Below the pieces are notes generated by a model. That model made no database searches, had not been told where the DNA came from, and was given only the letters and a program-made list of their open reading frames with translations. This document shows positions 52,986 to 59,187 of a stretch of 64,000 nt of DNA, piece by piece; the stretch's first letter is position 1, and every line of letters begins with the position of its first letter. Location: NCBI RefSeq assembly GCF_000196895.1, contig NC_014297.1:1054001-1118000 (forward strand), in the 5' to 3' direction. Source of the DNA: Halalkalicoccus jeotgali B3 (GTDB taxonomy: Archaea; Halobacteriota; Halobacteria; Halobacteriales; Halalkalicoccaceae). A program made the translations under genes and the position numbers.

Positions 52986-52991
52986 CACACC
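52986..52991. repeat. Left target-site duplication (CACACC)
   Basis: CACACC directly precedes the left terminal inverted repeat of the transposon, and is repeated immediately after the right one at 59182-59187. A 6-bp direct duplication outside perfect inverted repeats is the expected footprint of DDE transposition. Confidence 0.75.
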
Positions 52992-53004
52992 CAGTAGTTC
53001 CGAA
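52992..53004. repeat. Left terminal inverted repeat of the transposon
   Basis: CAGTAGTTCCGAA, perfect reverse complement of 59169-59181. Bases further inside do not match in a significant way. Confidence 0.8.
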
Positions 53005-53026
53005 GGTCAAAATCTGTGCAGGAGAT
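52999..53026 (+). repeat. 28-bp subterminal repeat, copy 1
   Basis: Twenty-eight bases starting TCCGAAGGTCA that recur at 54396-54423 with a single mismatch. Copy 1 overlaps the left terminal repeat. The two copies flank 1.4 kb containing two genes, so they may mark an older or nested element or a cassette junction. Confidence 0.75.
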
Positions 53027-53134
53027 CATCTCATCAAATCGTGTAGCGTAGAAAGTTGATCCATTGGCCCGAATGCCGTTGGCTACAAGCAAGGCAATAA
53101 TACTACTGGAGTCCGGAACCCGAAATAACAAACC

Positions 53135-53410
53135 ATGGGAAAAGACGATCTGATTGACGAGATTGAACGGCGAATAGAAGGATCAGAGACGCTGTCAGCC
53201 GAAGATTTAGACGTTGAGCAACGGTGCCGATATTGCGAGACACCACTACCGTATGAGGACTATAATGAGCACACCCCGAGCGCAGATTACGTCATCCACA
53301 TCATGCCCACTGCCGGAGAACAATCACCTCCAGAAAAGAGAATATACTGCACCCCAGACTGCCTGGTCAAGGACATGCGCGAAATAGAGGAACAATTCCT
53401 CCAAGAATAA
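53135..53410 (+). CDS. Small C4-type zinc-binding protein (transposon passenger)
   Basis: A 91-residue acidic protein starting MGKDDLIDEIERRIEG. It has CRYC (residues 31-34) and CTPDC (about 71-75), suggestive of a four-cysteine zinc site. The rest is helical and charged. Codon use is AT-richer than flanking chromosomal genes. It lies just inside the left end of the transposon. The function is unknown. Confidence 0.6.
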   Translation: MGKDDLIDEIERRIEGSETLSAEDLDVEQRCRYCETPLPYEDYNEHTPSADYVIHIMPTAGEQSPPEKRIYCTPDCLVKDMREIEEQFLQE

Positions 53411-53433
53411 ACCGCCGACAGAAGGTGTGAGCG

Positions 53434-53997
53434 TTACCTTCTGTGAAGACTCACCGCTCGCTCCGTAGCTTCGTAGACATTAGGGGTTGACCGCCAGTCG
53501 AGACGGCCATAATCTCCCTGCTGTACCGTCTCGTTTGCTTTAATCGCATTGACAGTTTCTTCAAGCCGATCCCGCTTCTCAAATAGGTCACCTTCGAAGA
53601 GGACTGAATTAACTTGATTCGGCGAGACCTCCAGAGCCTCGGCGATGACCTGACGCACGTGAGGATCTCTGTTGATGTGCTGAGTTACTCGTTGAAGTTC
53701 ATCGTTCACAGCGGGCCCCATCTCATCTCCATAGACCCGCCCGTTCGTACGCTGATTCAGCAAGTAGCTGTCTGCTCCCTCACTCGTTTCATTGAGTAAG
53801 CCAATTTCTTCGGTCAGCCGACGGAGCCGACCATATGAGGCTTCAGGGCAGGCAGCTTCGATATCAGCTCGATACATGCCCGAACCTGGTGGTGCATTAC
53901 TGGAGGTATAGGCGAGGACCTCCGCTAATTCGGGAGCAATTCGAATATCTGCATTCGCTTCACGTTCGACCGCGGCGATCAGATCTTTTCGAGACAT
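53434..53997 (-). CDS. Unknown passenger protein with winged-helix-like N-terminus
   Basis: A 187-residue protein starting MSRKDLIAAVEREANADIRI. Residues about 20-75 contain a helix-turn-helix-like pattern (YRADIEAACPEASYGRLRRL). The C-terminal half is helical with charged repeats (DLFEKRDRLEETVNAIKANE). It is convergent with the small zinc protein, 23 nt between stops. It is possibly a regulator or nucleic-acid-binding protein of the transposon. Confidence 0.5.
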   Translation of the reverse strand: MSRKDLIAAVEREANADIRIAPELAEVLAYTSSNAPPGSGMYRADIEAACPEASYGRLRRLTEEIGLLNETSEGADSYLLNQRTNGRVYGDEMGPAVNDELQRVTQHINRDPHVRQVIAEALEVSPNQVNSVLFEGDLFEKRDRLEETVNAIKANETVQQGDYGRLDWRSTPNVYEATERAVSLHRR

Positions 53998-54746
53998 ATT
54001 TCAGTGGTGTTCAATGGCGTGTCAATCATATACGATACCATACACTAGCCACTCCCTCTATGGATTACCGAAGCGTCTAAGTCCTCGGAGGAGCTACAGC
54101 CTTGCACAGACCAGTGGGAGGTCTACCGGTCACTCTCTGCTAGTGCCAGAGACAGTGGCCGAATCGGCTTTATTGGAGGGTGTTATCTCATGACGAGACT
54201 TTGGCACGATATACATATAACACTTTCCCCAGATATTGACAATAAAGCATTTGAACCGGATTGAATTTTCTAATCGGAAATTTTGAATGTAGTCTTCCGT
54301 TCTAAAGATTAAAATTTATCCTATCAATCATAAAACATCAATATTTTCCCACCAATTATATGTCATATATGCTTGAACTAATGGGTATATTGCAATCCGA
54401 AGGTCAGAATCTGTGCAGGAGATAAATCCACGAGGAAGCTATACAAAACAATGACTAAACAACACATTATCGGCGGCTGCGAACGGTTCATCGAAAAAGC
54501 CGAACACTACACCCACTGCGAACATGGTTAAGTACAAGTGGAAAGCATCGATTTCGAAATCACGAAATTAACAGAGTCGGGATGAGTTTGAGGGAAAAGC
54601 GCCAACAGTAGCTTCGCGAATGGCAAATAGGTCTGAATCTCGGAATAATAAGTGCAAAAACGCGACAAAACTATGAGTATCAAGCCAAATCATACAATAA
54701 CTAAACCACCGAAAGAACTAGATAGGGGGCTACCGTTGGGTACACT
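53998..54746. other. AT-rich gene-poor stretch inside the transposon
   Basis: About 750 bp with no convincing long gene. It contains AT-rich tracts (54290-54370) and the second copy of the 28-bp repeat at 54396-54423. A 26-residue frame at 54451-54531 (MTKQHIIGGCERFIEKAEHY...) is too short to claim. The region may hold decayed sequence from an earlier insertion. Confidence 0.45.
54396..54423 (+). repeat. 28-bp repeat, copy 2
   Basis: Matches 52999-53026 at 27 of 28 positions, in direct orientation. It lacks the first seven bases of the terminal inverted repeat, so it is not itself a complete end. Confidence 0.75.
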
Positions 54747-54953
54747 ATGAGTGTTGGAGTTACTGTAGAAGAACGGGCCATTAGTGTTGACCTGCCTGAT
54801 CAGCGAGAATATCGTAGCAAGGAGGATGCGGAATTAGATAAGGCTCTGGTAGAGTCAATTAAATGCGCAGAAGAGGCAGATAACGACTATTTGACGACAG
54901 TGTTGAAAAACGAACTCAAATCCCATTATTACAGCGAACAATTGAGTTACTGA
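54747..54953 (+). CDS. Small passenger protein of 68 residues
   Basis: Starts MSVGVTVEERAISVDLPDQR. Residues 1-20 are strand-like and the rest is charged helix (KEDAELDKALVESIKCAEEA). No recognised domain. It precedes another small gene by 63 nt on the same strand. It could be an antitoxin-like or regulatory peptide for the convergent Fic protein, but this is speculation. Confidence 0.45.
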   Translation: MSVGVTVEERAISVDLPDQREYRSKEDAELDKALVESIKCAEEADNDYLTTVLKNELKSHYYSEQLSY

Positions 54954-55016
54954 CTTAAGCAGATACCTCGCAAACATGCTAGGTTATTAAGTGGTAGTGA
55001 GTGTAGTTCCGTTATC

Positions 55017-55364
55017 ATGGGCGAGGATGAAGTGAAAGAACGCGTCAAAGAATTGCTCTTAGAACACGAGGGTTCAGATGACCCTATCACTTCGCGAGAG
55101 ATCAATGAGGAAACGAACCTTGACAATATCGGTTCTTTCCCCTCTACTAGAGCTGTGATTCGTGAGCTTGTACTGGAAGACCAACTGCCGATAGCAGCCA
55201 CATCACAAGGATATTTCATTATCCAAGACGAAAATGAGCTATCAGAGTATGTGGATCAACTTGAAAGTCGCGTGATGAATATTACTGACCGCAAATTTGC
55301 TGTACAGCGCGCTGCTCTAAATTGGGATGAAGGGTTCACCGACGAAGACGACGATATTTTATAG
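55017..55364 (+). CDS. Winged-helix-like passenger protein
   Basis: A 115-residue acidic protein. ERVKELLLEHEGSDDPITSR and EINEETNLDN...TRAVIRELVLED form a winged-helix-like N-terminal domain, resembling phage repressor or replication-helper proteins. A wing could follow (GYFIIQDENEL). A TATA box at about 54984-54991 gives a leaderless start at 55017. It is convergent with fic, 62 nt between stops. It may regulate the transposon. Confidence 0.55.
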   Translation: MGEDEVKERVKELLLEHEGSDDPITSREINEETNLDNIGSFPSTRAVIRELVLEDQLPIAATSQGYFIIQDENELSEYVDQLESRVMNITDRKFAVQRAALNWDEGFTDEDDDIL

Positions 55365-55408
55365 CCCTAATTGTTGAGCTCTTTAATCGAGCATCGAGTA
55401 GAGAATCC

Positions 55409-55421
55409 CAGTAGCTCCGAA
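55409..55421. repeat. Near-copy of the transposon terminal repeat
   Basis: CAGTAGCTCCGAA differs from the terminal repeat by one base and has the same orientation as the left end. It lies between the Fic gene and the winged-helix gene, so the right part (fic to transposase) may once have been a separate, smaller element with this as its left end. Confidence 0.55.
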
Positions 55422-55426
55422 ATAGA

Positions 55427-56587
55427 TTAGCGATATTGTAACTCATCGACAGGCTTCTGGATTATATCGAAAACCTCTTTTGCTCGATAGACACGGTTCC
55501 TGCTCTGCCCCGTAGTCTCCTCTAATACTCCATCTTCTTCTAACCGATCTACAGCCTTATTCGCTGTTCTGTAAGCCATATCAATCATCTGTTTAGCTTC
55601 ATTAACGGTAATATATGGTTGGGCGAATATTTCCATCGAAAGCTGTGAAACAGAATTTGCATCGTCTTGGTATCTGTCTCGATAATCATCACGCAAATCG
55701 AGCAAAGCAGAAGCCCTACTGAATGCCTCTTCTGTCTGCTGAGAAATACCTCTTAAGAAGAAAACTAGCCACTCTTGCCAAGCATTGTCTCGGCTTACAG
55801 CTAATAGCCGATTAGTGTATTCCTCTCTATTACGATTGAAGTATGAACTGGGATATAGAAAGGGTTCTGGTAAAAGGTCATCATCACACATCATCATCAT
55901 GATGAGTAGCCGACCCATTCTACCGTTACCATCCCGGAAGGGGTGGATCGTCTCAAACTGATAGTGCACCAATCCTATATCGATTAGAGACTGATACCTG
56001 CCGCCAGTCTGGATATATGTCTCCAGATTCTGCATCGCATAGGGGACTACTGACGGTGGTGAGGGTACAAATCGTGCATCTTCTCCACGACCTCCGATAT
56101 AAACTTGTGTATCACGAAATTTTCCAGGTTTTTTATCTCCGCCTCGAACACCACTCATCAAAGTATTGTGTAGAGAGCGGATAAGATCAAGGTCGATTCC
56201 GTTTTCCATTTTTTGAATTCCTTCGAAGACCGCTCTGACATAGTTATGAACTTCTTTTAGCTCATTACGGCTAGGCCCTGATGGGTCATTTTCCTGCCCT
56301 GCTTCGTATTCGTATACATCGGATAGTGTAACTCGTGTCCCCTCTATTTCAGAAGAGACGACTGCCTCTTTATAAATAAAAGGACTAATCAACATACTGG
56401 GGTTCTCAACACGCCTCCCGACGCCACTAAGTTGGCCTATGTTATTGGTTGCCTGCGTGAACACATCCAATAGTTCATCGTCCATTTCTATTTCTGGAGG
56501 AAGAGTGTCTGGTTTGAACGCGATATCTCCCCCAGAATTCACTAACTCTCCAGACATTTTGCCGGATCGGAATTGATCTATGTTCAT
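55427..56587 (-). CDS. fic: Fic/DOC-domain AMPylase-type protein with autoinhibitory motif
   Basis: A 386-residue Fic protein. The active-site motif HPFRDGNGRMGR lies at residues 215-226. An inhibitory helix motif SSEIEG is at residues 78-83 ([S/T]xxxE[G/N]), N-terminal to the core, so it is class II and probably self-restrained. The C-terminal 80 residues look like a winged helix (ITVNEAKQMIDMAYRTANKA). Fic enzymes add AMP or other phosphate groups to target proteins. Start: 56587, supported by a TATA box at 56611-56618. Longer starts add little-supported residues. The target is unknown. Confidence 0.88.
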   Translation of the reverse strand: MNIDQFRSGKMSGELVNSGGDIAFKPDTLPPEIEMDDELLDVFTQATNNIGQLSGVGRRVENPSMLISPFIYKEAVVSSEIEGTRVTLSDVYEYEAGQENDPSGPSRNELKEVHNYVRAVFEGIQKMENGIDLDLIRSLHNTLMSGVRGGDKKPGKFRDTQVYIGGRGEDARFVPSPPSVVPYAMQNLETYIQTGGRYQSLIDIGLVHYQFETIHPFRDGNGRMGRLLIMMMMCDDDLLPEPFLYPSSYFNRNREEYTNRLLAVSRDNAWQEWLVFFLRGISQQTEEAFSRASALLDLRDDYRDRYQDDANSVSQLSMEIFAQPYITVNEAKQMIDMAYRTANKAVDRLEEDGVLEETTGQSRNRVYRAKEVFDIIQKPVDELQYR

Positions 56588-56610
56588 ATATCCTATCATT
56601 GGTAGAGAGC

Positions 56611-56618
56611 ATATTAAA
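56611..56618 (-). promoter_or_regulatory. TATA box of fic
   Basis: On the minus strand the sequence is AGTTTAATATG, with TTTAATAT at 56611-56618. About 26 bp downstream is 56588, one base before the ATG at 56587. So the fic mRNA would be leaderless and begin at the chosen start codon. Confidence 0.5.
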
Positions 56619-56849
56619 CTGTTTTCCATATAGGTTCAATACAGGTGGATCACCGGAACTCATAGTGACCTTGTATTTCGGCCCAATATATATCTAAAAG
56701 GGCCTATACAGTGCTCAAAGTCGAAGAACCCGAGTTCAAAGTGAAATATAGGAAGTGAAATAAGAGGCAGGCATGAGGCGTATATTGATGTGCTACCGAA
56801 GATAGTACAATAAGCTATATCATGTTCACAGTAAAACATATATAGAGGA

Positions 56850-57086
56850 TCATATAGTTCGGATCCAAATTGCCCGCCGTGGTTCTGGCTTTTTCTTTCT
56901 AACCCGCCCTTGCCCTGCTAACTCTTCGAGATAATTGTATACCGTCCGTCGCGGGGCATCAACCATATCCGCGATCTCACCTGTCGTATAGGGCTCCATT
57001 GGCTCCATCGCTTCGAAGACTGTCTCTACAGTAGCGCCATGTTCCGACTCAAACTGCCCCTTTTTGTCGCGATTTACGTCATTCAT
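56850..57086 (-). CDS. Small winged-helix regulator (transposon passenger)
   Basis: A 78-residue protein starting MNDVNRDKKGQFESEHGATV. The winged helix is EPYTTGEIADMVDAPRRTVY, then YLEELAGQGRVRKKKPEPRR, the usual haloarchaeal HTH design with a basic C-terminal wing. It is divergent from the 33-residue membrane peptide and the transposase. It may act as transposition or fic regulator. Confidence 0.7.
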   Translation of the reverse strand: MNDVNRDKKGQFESEHGATVETVFEAMEPMEPYTTGEIADMVDAPRRTVYNYLEELAGQGRVRKKKPEPRRAIWIRTI

Positions 57087-57124
57087 GTGTACCGAATGTA
57101 GTCGTCTGTGTTGCAACTTGCAAC

Positions 57125-57226
57125 ATGAACTACTTAGCCCTTGCCGTGATAGGAACCGGTATACTTATTGGCCATGCCTTACAAGGAATGGATATAGGAG
57201 CCTGGTTAATCGATAGACTGCGGTAG
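57125..57226 (+). CDS. 33-residue membrane peptide
   Basis: Starts MNYLALAVIGTGILIGHALQ, with one hydrophobic segment, and ends IDRLR. It begins 39 nt from the divergent winged-helix start and is followed directly by a hairpin-rich segment. Single-helix peptides of this type occur in proviruses and toxin systems, but the evidence is limited to the open frame. Confidence 0.35.
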   Translation: MNYLALAVIGTGILIGHALQGMDIGAWLIDRLR

Positions 57227-57229
57227 AAT

Positions 57230-57327
57230 ATCCGGGTGTTAGAGCACCCGGATTTGGCTCCTTGCGGAGCGCGCGGAGCTGATCCCCTATGTCCAGTAAG
57301 AGTCACAGCTCCAACGAGCAGTTGGAG
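57230..57327 (+). other. Three-hairpin structured segment upstream of the transposase
   Basis: ATCCGGGTG/CACCCGGAT form a 9-bp stem with a 6-nt loop (57230-57253). GCTCC-TTGC-GGAGC follows at about 57257-57270. CTCCAAC/GTTGGAG form a 7-bp stem with a 5-nt loop (57309-57327). Three strong stems within 100 nt before a transposase gene may act as terminator, attenuator or structured RNA controlling transposition. Confidence 0.5.
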
Positions 57328-57401
57328 ACTACGGCGGTTAAGCATGGCGACAGAACACCCCATGATGCGCAGTATAATGCAATTTCTGGGGTTGCATTCT
57401 T

Positions 57402-58994
57402 ATGAGCCGCGACGACGATGCACCACAGTCGCGGTTAGAGGCACAAGCAAGCGAGATTATTAACGAGGAAACAACAGTAATAGAACTAACCAGTCAACTC
57501 GATTTCGGCTACGTCAAACACAATGATCAGTACGCGGAGTGGCACGCTTCAGCGCCACTCCTGCCCTTAGTTCGGGCGTTGTTCGTACGGGAAATTGAAA
57601 GCCATAACACCAGCCAACTCCACCGAAACCTCGCAAACAGCCCGAGCGAAGCGGAGGCCCTTGGATTTGATGGCGTGCCTTCGCGGTCAACTTTCTCGCG
57701 TGCGTGGCGCGAACGCTTTAACGATAGTCTGAAGAAAAGTATCGAATTCAATGCGAAGCGCATCCGTAAGCTGGCTCACGAACGCGGGTGCTCGATCGGT
57801 CTGAACGCTACGAAGCCCGAAGACAAGCAAGACGCTTCACGGCGGACCCAAGACCGGTTCATCGCCAGCAAGTCAAAGGAGGTGACCGAAGAGATGCAGC
57901 GACTGGTATTCCCCGCCTTCGAATTCGGGCGCGCCGAGAACGCTACGCACAAGACGGACACTTTCCTCGAATTGCAGAGCCATATGGGCCTCTCACAGTC
58001 CGCTGCAGAGTCCGGTACAGATCTCTTCGCCGATGACACGGACCGCGAGTCCGGTGCCCCAGACGGCGACACACACCTGCATAACGTCAAGCAGCTTGGT
58101 CCTGACGCAATTCAAGAGATGGTCGATGAGGGCATTGGTCGGATGGTCCACGAAGCGAAGCACCATCTCGAATTTGACCGGCCCGCAGACGTGGCGATCG
58201 ACATGACCTATATCGCCTACTACGGCGACCGGGATGAACTGGAGATGGTCATGGGTGCGCCACGGACGAAGGCTTATGACTGGTGCTACAAGTTCGCGAC
58301 GCTGACCGTCGTTGGCGAGAACGTAAAGTTCACACTGGCGATGCGGCCTGTTGAGAAGGGTGATCGAATCGGTGTGATTGTCCGCGATCTATTCTGGCGG
58401 GCGCGTGAACACGTTAGTATTGGCACAGTCTATGCTGATTCGGAATTCTGTGCGGCTGATACTATCCACGCGCTCGAAGAGGCAGGAGTGCAGTACGTAA
58501 TACCCTCGCCGAAGAATCGGCGTGTGAAGCGTGCTATTGAGCAAATGATTCAGAACGTGGAGGTTGAGCAAGCGTATGGAATCTATGGTCCAGTTCTTGG
58601 CAGCGGCACCCGGAAACGAGCTGAAACGAATCTCGTACTTATCCCATCAACGGCAGATGAAGACAAGACAGTTGCGTTCATCACGAACAAGGACGTTGAC
58701 GACGAGATCGAGTTAGACCGACGCGAAACGAAAGGTGTGGTTGGTAGGTACCGGCGGCGCTGGGGTATCGAGAACAGCTACAAGACGATTAAGGACTTCT
58801 TGGCGTGGACGACCTCAAAGGACTTCAGCGTCCGATTGTTCTACTTCGGATTCGCCGTTCTGCTGTACAATATGTGGCTAATAGTCGATCTACTGGTGCA
58901 ATTGAGTCTCGACATAGAACACCGCTATAAGCCGCGTGTCACGGCAAAGCGGTTCCTGAATCTGGCACGCAAGCAGCTCGCTGGCATCGGCTAA
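57402..58994 (+). CDS. IS4-superfamily (YREK) DDE transposase
   Basis: A 530-residue transposase. The catalytic triad is in VAIDMTYIAYYGD, GTVYADSEFCAAD and YRRRWGIENSYKTIKDF, the last matching the YREK signature exactly (Y-2-R-3-E-6-K). The N-terminal 130 residues form an HTH-like DNA-binding domain. It is longer than ISH3/ISH8-type relatives (around 400 residues). Its right end lies 187 bp before the terminal repeat. It seems intact, so the element may still be mobile. Confidence 0.88.
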   Translation: MSRDDDAPQSRLEAQASEIINEETTVIELTSQLDFGYVKHNDQYAEWHASAPLLPLVRALFVREIESHNTSQLHRNLANSPSEAEALGFDGVPSRSTFSRAWRERFNDSLKKSIEFNAKRIRKLAHERGCSIGLNATKPEDKQDASRRTQDRFIASKSKEVTEEMQRLVFPAFEFGRAENATHKTDTFLELQSHMGLSQSAAESGTDLFADDTDRESGAPDGDTHLHNVKQLGPDAIQEMVDEGIGRMVHEAKHHLEFDRPADVAIDMTYIAYYGDRDELEMVMGAPRTKAYDWCYKFATLTVVGENVKFTLAMRPVEKGDRIGVIVRDLFWRAREHVSIGTVYADSEFCAADTIHALEEAGVQYVIPSPKNRRVKRAIEQMIQNVEVEQAYGIYGPVLGSGTRKRAETNLVLIPSTADEDKTVAFITNKDVDDEIELDRRETKGVVGRYRRRWGIENSYKTIKDFLAWTTSKDFSVRLFYFGFAVLLYNMWLIVDLLVQLSLDIEHRYKPRVTAKRFLNLARKQLAGIG

Positions 58995-59168
58995 GCAACG
59001 ACTGAAGGCGGCGTTCGCCCGTAATTAGTTACAACTCTGTTTTTGACGGCGATATTCGGGTTCGGTTTGATTCGGTTAGTCTCTTCTGAGTGGATTTGGC
59101 TGTTCTGAGTCTCGTAGGCCAGCTATCCGCCCTTTCTTAGCGGTAGTTTTATGCTCAAATCTACCATA
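58995..59168. other. Non-coding right end of the transposon
   Basis: About 175 bp between the transposase stop and the right terminal repeat, with no gene. It contains TTTTTGACGG and TTCGGG stretches typical of transposon ends but no evident internal repeats. Confidence 0.45.
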
Positions 59169-59181
59169 TTCGGAACTACTG
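59169..59181. repeat. Right terminal inverted repeat of the transposon
   Basis: TTCGGAACTACTG, perfect reverse complement of 52992-53004. Confidence 0.8.
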
Positions 59182-59187
59182 CACACC
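59182..59187. repeat. Right target-site duplication (CACACC)
   Basis: Second copy of CACACC, flanking the right end. With 52986-52991 it defines the insertion site, so the pre-insertion sequence would read ...GTTCACACCTATTTC... Confidence 0.75.

Follow-up and report, generated by a model that had tools for sequence, protein, structure and literature searches.

The window analysed here, a stretch of 64,000 nucleotides from the haloarchaeon Halalkalicoccus jeotgali B3 (contig NC_014297.1, positions 1,054,001 to 1,118,000), contains at its positions 52992-59181 a block of 6,190 bp that encodes a transposase, a Fic protein and several smaller proteins. We conclude that this block is very probably a member of a widespread family of modular cargo transposons of haloarchaea, whose members sometimes carry defence genes. 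The conclusion is reached by comparison of sequences: members of the family share their ends and are flanked by target duplications, closely related cores have exchanged their cargo, and one unit of 14.3 kb is present as a whole in one genome, while sibling genomes lack it at the corresponding place.

A preliminary description of this DNA had proposed perfect 13-bp ends with CACACC duplications, a compositionally distinct block, and an intact transposase with intact ends, and in these respects it is borne out. The left terminal inverted repeat, CAGTAGTTCCGAA (52992..53004, + strand), and the right one, TTCGGAACTACTG (59169..59181, - strand), are complementary at 13 of 13 positions, and the target-site duplication CACACC, which has no strand, stands directly outside each of them (52986..52991 on the left, 59182..59187 on the right). 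An exact scan of the window finds no other 13-bp inverted pair with a flanking 6-bp direct repeat; by our own estimate, which assumes equal base frequencies, about 0.007 such pairs would be expected by chance. Directly inside the left repeat lies a motif, GGTCAAAATCTGTGCAGGAGAT (53005..53026, +), that is common to the relatives described below. The block is poorer in G+C than its flanks, which have a content of 0.646; the value for the cargo is 0.456 and that for the transposase part 0.539.

As we picture the family, its core would consist of a DDE transposase gene with a YREK motif, located near the right end, and of two short ends, to which one subgroup adds a small helix-turn-helix (HTH) gene. 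The DNA between the left end and the transposase would move together with this core, and we infer that the encoded enzyme carries out cut-and-paste transposition.

The transposase and its relatives

The transposase gene of the window element (57402..58994, +) is an intact open reading frame (ORF) of 530 codons, recognised by its motifs and by profile searches. Its catalytic residues D267, D346 and E457 have the D(60-110)D(100-150)E spacing of the IS4 family, and the signature Y(2)R(3)E(6)K of that family is complete at positions 450-464 (Y450, R453, E457, K464). Among the NCBIfam profiles, the best match is ISH3 (145.6 bits, cut-off 225), followed by IS1380, IS701, IS1634 and IS4, every one of them below its own cut-off; the best IS4 score is 22.6 bits, the cut-off being 115. 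The target duplication of IS4 elements is given as about one helix turn, 7-13 bp depending on subgroup, in the consulted part of the 2008 review (PMC2266710), and that of the window element is 6 bp long. Both ends of the window element begin with CAGT, as the CRGT ends of ISH3 elements require; the size and duplication length of ISH3 elements are not those found here, where the duplication is 6 bp and the plain members of the family mostly measure 1.95-2.06 kb. The transposase had been called IS4-type. Of this assignment the catalytic signature stands, while the duplication length and the best profile (ISH3, albeit below its cut-off) do not agree with it. Because the catalytic features are those of IS4 and the duplication length is not, and the ends are those of ISH3 and the size and duplication are not, we file the family in neither; it is best read as related to IS4 and ISH3, fitting neither family as presently defined. 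The transposase profile has no convincing match to any solved structure. On plasmids, relatives are annotated plainly as 'transposase' in the five records examined, and as IS4 in two listed records.

A small winged-helix/HTH gene (56850..57116, -) lies beside the transposase, and is kept there in the closest relative, L038, which comes from a sister species. Its true start is probably an internal ATG, and its product is a probable regulator of the transposon. In another subgroup a protein of 168 amino acids is encoded beside the transposase on the opposite strand (L065:3675-4181, L067:15999-16505, L068:16160-16666); it too is a probable transposon regulator, like the HTH gene of the window.

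Of 391 Halobacteria genomes, 131 contain relatives of the transposase (E <= 1e-60), and 107 plasmid records contain one at E <= 1e-40. A scan of contigs with an alignment (A1) as query yields 50 loci. With a single transposase as query, the contig scan gave 11 stretches that match a pattern and no confirmed relative; scans of viral contigs gave no confirmed relative of the transposase or of Fic. The ends of the family, deduced from the sequence itself, read roughly CAGTAGTTCCGAACGACAGAATCTGTGCA on the left and CAGTAGTTCCGAATGTGCA on the right, the latter some 160-250 bp from the transposase in delimited elements. With up to 2 mismatches, the left-end pattern is found in 29 of the 391 genomes; the same pattern read backwards, used as a control, has no hit among the matches listed.

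Our survey for paired ends with a target repeat covered 85 loci with 113 transposase places, allowing right ends up to 420 bp after the transposase (700 bp in one earlier round) and repeats of 5-8 bp. Both features are present at 46 places. When right ends are swapped between loci, the mean number of pairs is 3.35 and the maximum 8 (20 runs), versus the 46 real ones. After removal of duplicates, and with the window element excluded, 39 distinct elements remain: 20 have an exact 6-bp duplication, 14 an exact one of 5, 7 or 8 bp, and 5 a duplication with one mismatch, the exact duplications of 7 or 8 bp amounting to 10 of the 39. Many members are plain insertion sequences, about 2.0 kb long, and Natribaculum breve has several copies of these. 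One further element, L086, was added by hand and has a 6-bp repeat. The ends of L086, L045 and L041/L221 were completed by eye after automatic pairing had failed, and their delimitation is weaker evidence.

The phylogenetic tree does not separate cargo carriers as a clade of their own, a candidate we rejected: the clade that includes the window transposase (support 1.0) is mixed, with cargo or extra DNA in 9 of its 17 tips and plain or unresolved elements in the other 8. A search of the full-text literature, covering few subscription papers and not extending to ISfinder, found no description of the family; ISfinder names for members are possible.

Some observations concern the ends themselves. 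An inner TGTGCA box is common to both ends of the family. At several right ends it follows CGAA directly, at the left end it is shifted inwards by about 11 bp, or one helix turn, and it is missing from the right ends of the window element and L038. Left-end motifs also occur in stretches of 2.8-20 kb without a family transposase (L166-L170, L172, L173, L175, L177, L179, L181-L184); these are solo ends or decayed elements. In one of them, L168, about 730 bp separate two left ends that have the same direction. In the genome of the window itself, at about 354,200-355,382 of C1 (loci L002, L075), there is an element of 1,183 bp with a GATCGC duplication and related ends, in which a relative transposase is reduced to its C-terminal part (61% identity); it is a non-autonomous derivative.

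Exchange of cargo and growth of the elements

The core and the cargo of these elements vary separately. The HTH-transposase block of the window element is 71% identical to that of L038 over 2.2 kb, and the two have no cargo in common; the transposases of L065 and L067 are 96% identical, and their cargo and target repeats differ. In the relatives, the cargo is located between the left end and the transposase. The elements measure 5.4 kb (L038), 14.3 kb (L039, the largest), 12.6 kb (L040), 11.3 kb (L046), 5.6 kb (L087), 4.9 kb (L045), 11.8 kb (L065), 8.4 kb (L067), 2.7-2.8 kb (L043, L054 and L057), 4.0 kb (L086) and, for L221/L041, which has no duplication, 7.7 kb.

One member can be followed as a unit. 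At the site of L039, both flanks lie no more than 0.7 kb apart in 9 of 11 sibling loci, so that the 14.3-kb element is absent, and in 5 of those 9 loci a single gapped alignment of about 800 bp runs across the junction. Such presence and absence of a whole unit was obtained for L039 only; the flanks of L046, L038 and L040 are poorly or partly conserved in their genera. The earlier proposal that the window block is a cargo transposon is upheld by this absence of L039 in siblings, together with the relatives that have the same type of ends with other cargo at other sites. The same description had suggested searching haloarchaea for the ends linked to a YREK transposase. This search does bring up relatives, whereas the window unit as a whole has no second occurrence in the material searched, including the 391 Halobacteria genomes.

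The window element also contains traces of how it may have been built. A second left-end motif stands inside it at 54396, agreeing in 27 of 28 bases; with its adjoining sequence (54396..54563, +), it aligns over 171 bp with the true left-end region of L038, at 68% identity, and it lacks the outer 7 bp. For the outer left end, the nearest match is the left end of L039, with 97% identity over the first 35 bp. The most economical interpretation is a fusion between an older element and the left part of a second one, by which the outer 1.4 kb, holding the genes for proteins of 91 and 187 amino acids, was added later; the outer end would be the one in use now. Cargo would be gained, in general, by acquiring a second left end farther out, and the window element fits this route because the older left end is still inside it, without its outer 7 bp. 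Two relatives may be further cases: L065 has a left-proximal duplication inside the element, and in L039, compared with L040, about 3.4 kb of additional DNA separates the left end from a ThiF module that both share. From these three cases we infer a growth of the elements by stacking of left ends.

Fic and the rest of the cargo

The preliminary description counted seven passenger genes, which is slightly too many; we find five likely ones, besides the small HTH gene. The longest encodes a Fic protein of 400 amino acids (55427..56629, -), and its assignment to class II stands, with the Fic motif HPFRDGNGRMGR at position 229 and the N-terminal inhibitory motif SSEIEG at 92. Profiles, structures and motifs point to a SoFic-type protein, predicted to transfer adenosine monophosphate (AMP): the PADLOC SoFic profile matches at 3e-111 and the SoFic structure in PDB at 2.2e-32. 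The NCBIfam equivalog for SoFic scores 160.5 bits, where its cut-off is 550, and the match of the C-terminal SoFic domain is below the Pfam cut-off. The other passengers are a 91-amino-acid protein (53135..53410, +) with no family above cut-off, a 187-amino-acid protein (53434..53997, -) with distant relatives on two small haloarchaeal plasmids, and a two-gene module for proteins of 68 (54747..54953, +) and 115 amino acids (55017..55364, +), the same pair being found on two other haloarchaeal plasmids, L226 and L227.

Relatives of Fic (E <= 1e-60) occur in 168 of the 391 genomes, and SoFic is reported in 31.1% of the more complete archaeal genomes in the relevant passage of PMC12988326. The three closest relatives (L215-L217), 77-83% identical, belong to other families, and the five other genomes of the same genus in the sample have no match. 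Around L215-L217 the match in DNA is confined to the Fic gene, with no other genes of the window element nearby, and a stricter search for both types of family end finds none, the L216 contig stopping about 40 bp past Fic. Two weak left-end-like matches, one inside the L215 Fic gene and one in L219, were dismissed as chance. It had been proposed that finding the same genes without the ends would speak against a transposon. That is indeed the situation of Fic, but it makes a poor test, because exchangeable cargo predicts that Fic should also be found alone elsewhere.

Nonsynonymous (dN) and synonymous (dS) divergence indicate that Fic and the transposase have been under strong purifying selection in the past, with dS saturated or nearly so. 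Between Fic and L215, dN is 0.09 and dS 3.0, and the ratio dN/dS is about 0.03 for this pair and about 0.08 for the transposase relative to L038, at dS values of 2-3 that are near saturation; no dS value could be calculated for L216 or L217.

By homology, the Fic passenger is most likely a SoFic-type antiviral toxin of a single gene, which would transfer AMP and thereby bring about abortive infection. Such a benefit would favour retention of the transposon. Alternatively, the passengers including Fic may form an addiction or toxin-antitoxin module that retains the transposon without being an antiviral system, which we hold to be unlikely. In the part of PMC12249575 that describes it, SoFic is a single-protein anti-phage system, toxic on expression and accompanied in Escherichia coli by a small antitoxin; the relative L065 carries genes for a ParE-like toxin and for a nucleotidyltransferase-like protein. 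Both observations suit an addiction module. No AS1-like or other clear antitoxin candidate was recognised beside Fic among the listed ORFs of at least 25 amino acids, a result that weighs against addiction and also against the SoFic reading that we prefer. Further, the three closest Fic relatives do without the element's other genes, and one of them, L217, has genes for DUF499, DUF1156 and GmrSD within 9 kb, which places it near defence genes.

Profile searches suggest defence functions in the cargo of several relatives as well. L038 carries a NucC/PD-DExK-like nuclease and three genes without known family, and L039 a PD-T4-6-like kinase besides a ThiF (E1-like) protein. L040 combines a Pycsar cyclase and a PycTM effector with a ThiF module, a D12 methyltransferase and an ATPase-fold protein. 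In L046, a methyltransferase and a helicase are accompanied by a protein that matches MZB weakly. The ThiF matches are partial, and those of the helicase and the methyltransferase are generic. The cargo of L045, L087, L221, L086, L067, L054, L057 and L043 is not defence-like, or is unclear. The firmest defence-like cargo is the Pycsar pair, together with Fic. The cyclase and effector genes are adjacent (L040:8222-9492) within a delimited haloarchaeal transposon. In two elements from one genus, a ThiF/E1-like protein and two proteins without a clear family form a three-gene module (L039:7725-10659 and L040:10972-13786), which is possibly an undescribed defence module. The cargo of L065 also includes a gene for a TATA-binding protein (L065:6453-7046).

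We compared cargo with flanking DNA in a control set of 12 elements (the window element, L038, L039, L040, L043, L045, L046, L054, L057, L065, L067 and L087); L063 and L068 were dropped for want of a target repeat, and L086 and L221, found later, were not counted. We retained ORFs of at least 120 amino acids with more acidic than basic residues, removed the transposases of the family, and kept nested transposases of other families. At a PADLOC threshold of 1e-10, at least 10 of the 53 cargo proteins match, one of them, the second ThiF, being deduced, and two of the ten being homologous ThiF proteins. In the flanks, 34 families each match one member among 110 proteins; 25 of these families are listed, and by family name we judge the matches to represent about 4-6 distinct proteins. 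Fisher's test gives p = 0.002 for 4 flank proteins, 0.0095 for 6 and 0.066 for 10, so the enrichment of defence genes in the cargo is suggestive, not firm.

Weighing the evidence and comparison with known systems

Several observations count against a family of cargo transposons that carries defence genes. The survey found no paired ends at 67 of the 113 transposase places, and cargo on the right side or repeats of other lengths would escape it. Two of the 39 elements (4,077 and 4,078 bp) are neighbouring plain copies taken as one; the repeats of L046, L043 and L087 have one mismatch, the right end of L045 is poor, L041/L221 lacks a target repeat, and solo left ends without transposase exist. 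At the L039 site, 2 of the 11 loci have the right flank alone, and the target bases have drifted, not being conserved letter for letter in siblings. Only 5 of the 12 control elements have defence-like cargo, as judged by profile hits, some of them generic or partial. The window element itself has one full-length copy in its own genome, and the 6 further genomes checked from the same genus did not yield the empty site predicted for it: its left flank is without counterpart there within 1.5 kb before CruF. The recent movement once proposed for it finds no support in this single copy, in the lack of an empty site, or in the outer left segment, which appears to have been added later.

That same single copy, along with the truncated internal left end, would suit a dead relic whose passengers were trapped by deletion and which no longer moves; we rate this as quite improbable, given the perfect outer ends and the strong purifying selection on transposase and Fic (with dS near saturation). 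Very improbable, lastly, is a plain insertion sequence of about 2 kb that came to lie beside an unrelated island by chance, the distant left end being a leftover copy: plain 2-kb members, the internal left-end copy and solo left ends elsewhere would agree with it, but the outer ends match at 13 of 13 positions and bracket the sole 6-bp duplication of its kind in the window, the same architecture recurs in relatives that have different cargo and target repeats, and, for the family, siblings lack the 14.3-kb member as a whole at its site.

A broader proposition can be made, for and against which we see the balance as even: that modular transposons, growing by left-end stacking and carrying interchangeable immune cargo (Fic, Pycsar, ThiF modules, NucC-like nucleases, a kinase and methyltransferase-helicase operons), are one vehicle of the patchy spread of defence systems among Halobacteria. 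In the portion of a 2019 survey that treats them, composite DNA transposons with diverse passenger genes are given as undetected in archaea (PMC6563490), and a 2023 paper names, in its relevant part, one haloarchaeal passenger gene (PMC10544981). A family with delimited ends, an empty site in siblings and some defence cargo makes the movement of archaeal immune genes directly testable. With its ends as a search pattern, defence genes not yet described can be sought among unknown cargo, and such elements may help to spread immunity genes among archaea.

The window Fic shares with the anti-phage protein SoFic the Fic motif, the class II inhibitory motif, the SoFic profile and the structural matches; it differs in its location inside a transposon, in a C-terminal domain that stays below the Pfam cut-off, and in having no recognised AS1-like neighbour. 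Hlac_3088 of Halorubrum lacusprofundi is likewise a passenger of a haloarchaeal transposon with a proposed antiviral role, as the pertinent section of PMC10544981 describes it, but its product is a surface protein; among the ORFs of L068 and L069, the only ones examined, no link of Hlac_3088 to L069 was found. Tn7-like transposons, in the account excerpted from PMC8649781, resemble the present elements in their variable cargo that includes defence systems; the window element, by contrast, has one DDE transposase and an archaeal host, and those of its ORFs that were searched against Pfam include no Tns-type transposition genes.

Among insertion sequences, ISH3 elements have the best NCBIfam profile, CRGT ends that fit CAGT, and archaeal hosts. 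As characterised in the ISH3 entry of the 2008 review (PMC2266710), they measure 1225-1500 bp, have duplications of 4-5 bp, and have an incomplete YREK motif, whereas the plain members of the present family measure about 2.0 kb, their duplications are mostly 6 bp, and the motif is complete in the window protein. The IS231 group of the IS4 family, from the Bacillus cereus group, is alike in its YREK motif and in carrying passenger DNA between the left repeat and the transposase; it differs in its CAT ends, its duplications of 10-12 bp and its near confinement to the Bacillus cereus group. The part of the same review that deals with cargo knows this architecture solely from IS231 (PMC2266710). 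The haloarchaeal family displays it too, with passengers between the left end and the transposase, and with ends that are shared with plain insertion sequences.

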